From an uncultured Flavobacteriales bacterium (GTDB lineage: Bacteria > Bacteroidota > Bacteroidia > Flavobacteriales_D > Parvicellaceae), in assembly GCA_943788755.1 (NCBI GenBank), contig CALSRM010000003.1, positions 992,001 to 1,056,000 of the forward strand: a stretch of 64,000 bases of DNA. Direction: 5' to 3'. Under the pieces are notes generated by a model. It was not told the DNA's origin. It ran no database searches and saw only the letters and a program-made list of their open reading frames with translations. A program made the translations under genes and the position numbers. Shown piece by piece: positions 45,048 through 47,003 of the stretch (position 1 is its first letter; every line of letters begins with the position of its first letter).

Positions 45048-47003
45048 ATGATTCCAAAAGAAACCATAGAGAAAATATTTGATGCAGCTGATATAGTTGA
45101 TGTTATTAATGATTTCGTAAATCTAAAAAAAGCGGGTTCAAACTATAAGGGTAATAGCCCTTTCTCTGATGATAAAACACCATCGTTTATGGTTTCTCCT
45201 GCTAAAGGTATCTTCAAAGATTTTAGTTCTGGAGAGGGAGGTACGGTTGTTTCTTTTTTAATGAAACATGAGCACTTTACCTATCCAGAAGCTCTTCGTT
45301 GGTTAGCTAAAAGATACAATATTGAAATCCAAGAGGAGGAGCAATCGCCTGAGCAAATAGCCGCTCAAGGTGCTCGAGAAAGCTTGTATCTGGTCAATCA
45401 ATTTGCAAGAGATTATTTTGTGAAGCAAATGCTTGAATCACAAGAAGGAAAGGCTATCGGGTTAAGTTATTTTAAAGAAAGAGGTTATAACGATGCCATC
45501 ATTAAGAAGTTCGAATTAGGATATTCTCCTGATAATAGTGGTGCTTTCACAAAAGCGGCACTTAGCGCGGGGTATAAGTTAGCGTATTTAGAGAAAACTG
45601 GATTGTCAAAAACGAATGAAAAAGGGAGTTTTGATTTTTTCAGAGGTAGAGTAATCTTTCCTATACATAACCTTACGGGCAGGATTTTAGGGTTTGGAGG
45701 CAGAACGCTAAAAACAGATAAAAAAATAGCAAAATATTTCAATTCTCCGGAAAGCGAAATATACCAGAAGAGTAATGTTTTGTATGGTCTTTATCAAGCA
45801 AAAGGAGCTATAATAAAACAAGATACCTGTTACTTGGTTGAAGGTTACACTGATGTTGTAAGTATAAATCAAGCAGGAATTGAAAATGTTGTTGCCTCCA
45901 GTGGCACTGCTCTTACGGGAGGTCAAATAAAACTAATAAAAAGATATACAAACAATATTACCATTCTCTATGATGGTGATAGTGCAGGGATAAAAGCTTC
46001 TTTTAGAGGAATTGATTTGATTCTTGAACAAGGAATGAACGTAAAAGTCGTTTTGTTTCCGGATGGGGAAGATCCAGATAGCTATTCTAAAAAAGTTGGA
46101 ATAACAGAGCTCGAGGACTATTTGCGGAAAGAATCAAAAGATTTTATTCGTTTTAAAGCGTCTGTATTGTTAAGTGATGCAAAAGACGATCCTTTAAAAA
46201 GAGCTGAGACAATTAAAGATATCGTTAAGTCCATAGCTATTATTCCAGACCAGATTATAAGGTCTGTATATATTAGAGAAACAAGCCAACTTTTTGATAT
46301 TAGTGAAAAGGCTCTTTTAAGTGAGGTTAATAAAATTTTTGCCAAAAAAAAGTCGTCTCCTTCTCAACATCAGCGACAAGAAATAGAAGTTTTTCAGCCA
46401 ACGGCACCCTTGCAAAAAAGAGAATCAAGTGACGGAAGTCATGGTTTGGATGATCAGGAAAAAGATTTAATCCGATTGATGCTTACATATGGGTCAATAG
46501 GTATCGAAATAGAGATTGAGGCTCAAGAAAGTGAAGAAATCCAAAAAGAAGAAATTCCATTAGCTCAATATATCATAGAAGAACTTCTAACCGATGAATT
46601 GAAATATGTCAATGAGACCTATCAAAGTATTTTTGATGAGTTTTTGGAAGGTATTGAAAATGGATTGATTGTTAATGATCAACACTTTTTTCAAAAAGAA
46701 GAAGCTACGCTGAGTACTATGGTTGTTGATTTAACAATGCCTAAAGATTCGGTGAGTGAAAACTGGGAAAAAAAGCATCGTATTTTCCCCCAAGAAGAAA
46801 AGCATAAACTGAAACAAGCTGCCGTAGAATCAATTTATATGTACAAACTTCGTGTTACTGAGAATATGATTAACGGAAAACAACTTGGGCTAAAAACTGA
46901 GAAAGAGGAGAATGAAATATATAGTCTTTTGGAACAAATCAAACAACTTAACCAAATAAGAAATACCTTTGCATCAAAACTAGGAATCATTATTACAAGA
47001 TGA
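45048..47003 (+). CDS. dnaG: DNA primase without zinc-binding residues
   Basis: A 651-residue DnaG that makes RNA primers for replication. The N-terminal CHC2-type domain aligns cleanly (MIPKETIEKIFDAADIVDVI), but its four zinc ligands are replaced: Ser37, Ser40, Asp58 and Ser61 stand where Cys, His, Cys and Cys belong (SPFS and DFSS, with conserved spacing). The TOPRIM core is intact: VEGYTDVVSINQAGI and LYDGDSAGIKASFRG. The C-terminal DnaB-interaction region, about 190 residues, is highly charged. I recall the same substitution in flavobacterial primases, so it is probably a clade trait. The next gene overlaps by 4 bp. Confidence 0.94.
   Translation: MIPKETIEKIFDAADIVDVINDFVNLKKAGSNYKGNSPFSDDKTPSFMVSPAKGIFKDFSSGEGGTVVSFLMKHEHFTYPEALRWLAKRYNIEIQEEEQSPEQIAAQGARESLYLVNQFARDYFVKQMLESQEGKAIGLSYFKERGYNDAIIKKFELGYSPDNSGAFTKAALSAGYKLAYLEKTGLSKTNEKGSFDFFRGRVIFPIHNLTGRILGFGGRTLKTDKKIAKYFNSPESEIYQKSNVLYGLYQAKGAIIKQDTCYLVEGYTDVVSINQAGIENVVASSGTALTGGQIKLIKRYTNNITILYDGDSAGIKASFRGIDLILEQGMNVKVVLFPDGEDPDSYSKKVGITELEDYLRKESKDFIRFKASVLLSDAKDDPLKRAETIKDIVKSIAIIPDQIIRSVYIRETSQLFDISEKALLSEVNKIFAKKKSSPSQHQRQEIEVFQPTAPLQKRESSDGSHGLDDQEKDLIRLMLTYGSIGIEIEIEAQESEEIQKEEIPLAQYIIEELLTDELKYVNETYQSIFDEFLEGIENGLIVNDQHFFQKEEATLSTMVVDLTMPKDSVSENWEKKHRIFPQEEKHKLKQAAVESIYMYKLRVTENMINGKQLGLKTEKEENEIYSLLEQIKQLNQIRNTFASKLGIIITR

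Follow-up and report, generated by a model that had tools for sequence, protein, structure and literature searches.

The DNA primase (DnaG) of an uncultured bacterium of the order Flavobacteriales, family Parvicellaceae, has an N-terminal zinc-ribbon domain from which all four zinc ligands are gone. In place of the Cys-His-Cys-Cys (CHCC) set that defines CHC2-type domains, this protein has Ser37, Ser40, Asp58 and Ser61. Patterns of conservation, together with a predicted structure, suggest that the domain is probably a functional, metal-free ribbon, folded and in use in an ordinary housekeeping DnaG, rather than a lost domain. Within the phylum Bacteroidota, several branches of the DnaG tree, separate from one another, are in the zinc-less state.

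A primase gene with its ribbon ligands replaced

The gene lies in the stretch of 64,000 nucleotides that was analysed here (the window); its features are collected in Table 1. In profile searches of the genome, an assembly of 3.17 Mb that is 97.4% complete, it was the only match to PF01807 and TIGR01391. The protein passes both the TIGR01391 dnaG equivalog model (426.6 bits, versus a cut-off of 283.6) and the PF01807 (CHC2) profile (96.8 bits, versus 24.9). Its C-terminal region matches Pfam DnaB_bind (24.3 bits, cut-off 20.6) and is a predicted helicase-binding region. The TOPRIM/RNA polymerase motifs, namely EGYTD (residues 265-269), DGD (309-311) and DPD (342-344), are all intact, in agreement with the first-pass annotation, which had described them as normal.

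Table 1. Features of the dnaG gene, in window coordinates
Feature	Position	Strand	Basis
dnaG, DNA primase, 651 aa	45048..47003	+	translation; profile matches; sole copy found in genome
N-terminal CHC2-type domain, zinc ligands absent	45048..45341 (aa 1-98)	+	PF01807 match aa 3-98; predicted fold
DNAG_N catalytic core	45420..45803 (aa 125-252)	+	Pfam match
TOPRIM domain with EGYTD, DGD, DPD	45831..46085 (aa 262-346)	+	Pfam match; motif reading
DnaB_bind match	46185..46307 (aa 380-420)	+	Pfam match
Lys34	45147..45149	+	Lys/Arg in 101/110 zinc-less genomes; Lys in 2/86 CHCC
Ser37, in place of ligand Cys 1	45156..45158	+	translation, alignments
Ser40, in place of ligand His	45165..45167	+	translation, alignments
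Met48	45189..45191	+	bulky (M/Y/F/V/I) in 101/110 zinc-less genomes; in 3/86 CHCC (2 V, 1 Y)
Lys57, adjoins third ligand position	45216..45218	+	invariant in a 43-row alignment (5 CHCC rows); Lys in Aquifex
Asp58, in place of ligand Cys 3	45219..45221	+	translation, alignments
Ser60	45225..45227	+	Ser in 110/110 zinc-less genomes; in 5/86 CHCC (otherwise Gly 80, Ala 1)
Ser61, in place of ligand Cys 4	45228..45230	+	translation, alignments

The ribbon stretch, translated from 45048-47003, reads ...NYKGNSPFSDDKTPSFMVSPAKGIFKDFSSGEGG... The ligand columns were fixed by alignment with CHCC relatives and with two experimental structures, 1D0Q and 2AU3. It had been proposed from the sequence that all four ligands are replaced while the usual C-x2-H ... 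C-x2-C spacing is kept; both statements hold, to the nucleotide.

A sequencing error, which the first-pass annotation had named as a possible refutation, is excluded, because the same-genus genomes share these residues and the ribbon differs among them by no nonsynonymous change. Specifically, the four residues recur in three same-genus genomes (G001, G002 and G003) and in two MAGs at 91-92% identity. Across three same-genus comparisons, the ribbon (aa 30-65) shows 0 nonsynonymous versus 12, 12 and 9 synonymous changes, aa 1-98 show 2 versus 25, and the catalytic part (aa 120-430) shows 21.5-23.5 versus 74.5-75.5; two of the three sequences, L033 and L020, give identical counts and may be one organism. 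We found no support for an error of sequencing or assembly, and as the zinc-less state is common to independent assemblies over many families, we give this explanation practically no credence.

The ribbon is under strong purifying selection. Its core (residues 30-65) is the most conserved of three stretches compared, with a mean pairwise identity of 0.756 among 47 zinc-less rows and 0.719 among 28 zinc-type rows. The corresponding values are 0.679 and 0.630 for the catalytic stretch (196-345), and 0.626 and 0.572 for the whole domain (4-98), which is thus below the catalytic stretch.

Distribution and history of the zinc-less state

We read the ligand positions in 196 distinct genomes of the phylum, and classed a primase as zinc-less where at most one of the four CHCC ligands is kept. 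By this definition 86 genomes are CHCC and 110 are zinc-less, a ratio that is not a prevalence, because family membership and, in part, low profile scores guided the choice of genomes, which was not random. The counts include only sequences whose residues were read, with no score-based calls. The PF01807 bit score was considered as a proxy for zinc state and rejected, since the two classes overlap: G117, at 119.7 bits, reads STCS, and lower scores are found in several CHCC genomes, such as G052 (116 bits). Eleven loci (L176, L190, L205-L210, L265, L270 and L281), comprising second copies, primases of mobile type, fragments and a variant contig, were dropped before the count of 196, and loci with fewer than 75 aligned columns (L288, L030, L170, L206-L208 and L210) were also dropped.

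Arranged by kinship, the zinc-less state is found in 18/18 genomes of the organism's own family (its own genome and genus included), in 36/43 of the rest of the order, in 41/69 of the rest of the class and in 15/66 of the rest of the phylum. The CHCC set is kept in three families of the organism's own order (f7, f10 and f54). Zinc-less forms occur in other orders, and outside the class in f25, f27, f38 and one of the three genomes read in f42. Some families are mixed, namely f13 (9 zinc-less, 9 CHCC), f18 (20 and 7) and f42 (1 and 2). Among the best 80 named loci of the scan, 74 are zinc-less and 6 are CHCC, which bears out the statement in the first-pass annotation that other flavobacteria have similar sequences; the zinc-less ones include Flavobacteriaceae (Psychroserpens, Psychroflexus, Sinomicrobium) and Crocinitomicaceae (Brumimicrobium, Fluviicola, Crocinitomix).

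Two or three ligands are kept in none of the 196 counted genomes. The closest approach to an intermediate is a single remaining ligand, which is His40 in two f15 genomes and Cys58 in 38 zinc-less genomes. Partial sets occur among the dropped loci: CHCS, SRDC and CHCG in L205, L206 and L208, respectively, which are second copies or fragments. One MAG of f10 (G281) contains two dnaG contigs, with CHCC in L175 and CHWC, i.e., with Trp as the third ligand, in L176.

Some dropped loci deserve a separate description. L190 (f9), L265 and L270 (both f18) are second primase-like open reading frames of about 980-1120 aa with TOPRIM motifs, whose ribbons are zinc-less (SICT, TGCT and SGDS, respectively); they are possibly primases of mobile elements. 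In L209 (f1, G012:C322), on a contig of 3 kb, the first ~240 residues of a zinc-less DnaG run on into unrelated sequence; the product is without TOPRIM motifs, and may be a MAG chimera or a real fusion.

The history of the switch was assessed on a tree of 75 rows, built from 541 columns after the domain and thinned at 60% identity from 194 rows of the class, with 4 outgroups added. Five long or mobile-type rows were excluded (L166, L190, L209, L265 and L270), of which L166 is the zinc-less f42 genome. On this tree the zinc state must change 12 times, and well-supported branches force at least 6 of these changes; the counts do not distinguish gain from loss. When all 47 zinc-less rows are constrained to one clade, the likelihood over columns outside the domain worsens by 414 log units (p-AU 1.7e-76). 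Within f13 alone, a single zinc-less clade is likewise rejected, at a cost of 86 log units (p 1.8e-7). A wider tree, with 117 rows, gives 11 changes, at least 5 of them forced, and places f25, f27 and f38 in a well-supported zinc-less clade outside the class. The first-pass annotation had suggested a clade-wide loss, to be dated by aligning DnaG across Bacteroidota. That alignment confirms the zinc-less state in relatives and contradicts a single event: the state does not derive from one flavobacterial loss, because a single zinc-less clade is rejected in trees built from the remainder of DnaG, and CHCC primases persist in the organism's own order while zinc-less ones occur outside the class.

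The repeats may, however, reflect exchange rather than convergence, if the zinc-less domain moved between lineages by recombination. This account of the origin, which is compatible with a working metal-free ribbon, seems to us only slightly short of an even bet. A tree of the domain only (98 N-terminal columns, with the switching positions removed) requires 4 changes, versus 12 for the rest of the protein, and does not reject a single zinc-less clade (p-AU 0.50). Of the eight zinc-type domains of f13, seven group together (99/98), separate from the nine zinc-less ones. The absence of chromosomal dnaG genes with two or three ligands among the counted genomes also leans towards exchange. On the other hand, the domain provides only 98 columns, and f18 (p 0.71) and f13 (p 0.42; 0.165 in a smaller set) are likewise not rejected as single clades. 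The eighth zinc-type domain of f13 (L283) falls among the zinc-less ones, and the CHWC variant in one MAG does retain three ligands. The zinc-less domains of f13, moreover, keep the zinc-type residues Arg29, Val/Ile34 and Thr48, which fits, and leans towards, local loss.

Fold and function of the ribbon

An AlphaFold2 model of residues 1-106 (mean pLDDT 84) superimposes on 1D0Q from Geobacillus over 98 residues at 1.1 A (Z 17.1), and on 2AU3 from Aquifex over 95 residues at 1.8 A (Z 16.0). The ribbon fold is thus kept in the predicted model. AlphaFold2 tends towards the fold of the family, whether or not a metal is needed, and 5 of the 43 alignment rows were of the CHCC type. Weaker matches, to T4 primase (Z 6.7) and TWINKLE (Z 5.9), may reflect a common arrangement only. 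In a model of the full-length protein (mean pLDDT 83), the placement of domains is untrustworthy, because the pTM is 0.53.

The case for a working ribbon comes from the ligands having gone together, from strong purifying selection on the ribbon in the only DnaG found in the genome, from the separate branches on which the state lies, and from replacements that are stereotyped in 110/110 zinc-less genomes at positions 37, 58, 60 and 61. Position 37 is Ser in all of them, position 58 is Asp in 72 and Cys in 38, and position 61 is Ser or Thr throughout. The two knuckles once pinned by zinc would be held by the small polar residues Ser37, Ser60 and Ser/Thr61 with Asp58 or Cys58, the Ser and Asp side chains filling the zinc site. 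Better packing through a bulky residue at 48 would help to hold the knuckles, and a new basic residue at 34 would usually accompany the replacements. The domain would still present the template to the catalytic core, so that initiation would remain template-dependent in the absence of zinc.

Several observations count against this explanation. The whole zinc-less domain (4-98) is less conserved than the catalytic stretch, and Lys/Arg34 and the bulky residue 48 are absent from all nine zinc-less f13 genomes, which have Val/Ile34 and Thr48 and account for all 9 exceptions at these positions. In the structure alignment, Aquifex DnaG has Arg34 and Tyr48 although its zinc ligands are present; Lys34 and a bulky residue 48 are therefore no proof of compensation, and the idea that they compensate strictly is weakened by Aquifex and f13 alike. 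In an analysis of independent pairs on the first tree, Lys/Arg34 and bulky 48 track zinc loss in about 4/5 pairs and Ser60 in about 4.8/5, with none opposite, versus about 0.4-0.5/5 for catalytic positions 138 and 197 and about 0.5/5 for Lys57, among the positions listed; with 5 pairs on well-supported branches, a sign test cannot reach 0.05.

Loss of function has precedents in other systems, which also counts against a working ribbon: the zinc motif of T7 primase is required for template recognition, as summarised in the available part of a review (PMC6163395), and human TWINKLE, in which three of the four Cys are missing, has lost priming, according to the portion of the report at hand (PMC7231222). 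The domain might be a relic, in which zinc and site recognition were lost together, and which serves as scaffolding while the core, guided by the helicase, primes with little sequence choice. The total loss of ligands in this DnaG and the priming-dead domain of TWINKLE would fit such a relic, as would TtDnaG2, which is described, in the accessible text, as priming with low specificity with its zinc domain facing away from the core (PMC5634424). Relics drift, however, whereas here the replacements are fixed across families and the ribbon has no nonsynonymous change in the three same-genus comparisons. We consider a relic unlikely. It is more improbable still, to the point of being a marginal concern, that the site holds a different metal, or that other ligands keep zinc in place. 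A divalent ion could be bound by Asp58, but in 38/110 zinc-less genomes the site has no soft ligand other than Cys58, and no new conserved Cys or His appears in the 28 columns that give the best separation of zinc-less from zinc-type sequences.

The conclusion of the first-pass annotation, that this primase must find its initiation sites in another way, goes further than the evidence: the ribbon core is the best-conserved stretch, its predicted fold is unchanged and Lys57 is invariant in the 43-row alignment. Zinc loss need not mean loss of template reading. A residue beside the zinc motif, Lys in Clostridioides difficile and Aquifex and His in Geobacillus, affects the preference for CCC, according to the part of the study available (PMC5204125). 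Lys57 aligns with the Lys that precedes the third ligand of Aquifex, and with the His of 1D0Q; it may be the counterpart of the C. difficile lysine that tunes trinucleotide choice. A CCC-like preference of this primase would be a guess.

What would be gained by losing zinc is likewise a matter of guesswork; in the simplest accounts, the primase might no longer depend on the zinc supply, or might escape oxidation at a labile Cys3-His site. Avoidance of zinc throughout the genome is not supported as a full account. By simple motif patterns, the zinc sites of RecR and of four window proteins named from sequence, i.e., thymidine kinase, FolE, CysRS and a dioxygenase, look intact, and thus the genome has not abandoned zinc. 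No match to Zn_ribbon_Top1 (PF01396) was found in this genome; the domain is present in 8/14 control genomes.

Ribosomal protein L36 of the same genome (L291, C4:192866-192979, - strand) is missing most of its zinc ligands, with Ser, Cys, Asn and Lys at what we take, by comparison with zinc-binding L36, to be the ligand places. In this phylum, L36 proteins without zinc are common. Together with DnaG, this makes at least two zinc-ribbon proteins of the genome that have lost ligands, L36 being a different protein that lacks most of them.

Relation to known ribbons and implications

In domain order, predicted N-terminal fold and catalytic motifs, this protein is like the DnaG of Geobacillus (Bacillus) stearothermophilus (1D0Q) and Aquifex (2AU3); unlike these, it has none of the four zinc ligands. 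Ribbons that have lost zinc ligands are already known, in topoisomerase I and TWINKLE. The N-terminal domain of human mitochondrial TWINKLE, which is T7 gp4-like, is likewise a primase-type ribbon, to which the fold match is weak. It has lost priming too, as stated in the same partial source (PMC7231222), whereas the DnaG described here retains its catalytic motifs, and no second DnaG was found in the genome. In E. coli topoisomerase I, domains D8 and D9 retain the zinc ribbon fold after loss of the cysteines, according to the available part of PMC10969213; these are, however, extra repeats beside zinc-bound copies, and DnaG has a single primase ribbon.

Sequence databases may already flag the missing finger. 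A search of the open-access literature by titles and the beginnings of abstracts, with subscription journals and preprints outside its scope, found no paper on a zinc-free DnaG. In the accessible portion of a 2014 paper that drew on flavobacterial DnaG as a phylogenetic marker, there is no mention of zinc in this protein.

Overall, we put at about even the chances that Bacteroidota primases switch in an all-or-none manner between a zinc ribbon and a metal-free one, by repeated convergence or by N-terminal domain swap, and that the metal-free form reads the template without zinc. The annotation of such DnaG proteins as zinc proteins is likely wrong, and primase inhibitors directed against the zinc site would probably not act on these bacteria. 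If the proposal is true, chromosome priming proceeds without this zinc in many lineages of the phylum, some of which share families f13 and f18 with zinc users, so that the role of zinc could be tested with natural pairs; the structural and recognition roles of primase zinc would then be separable, with sister genera as natural mutants.
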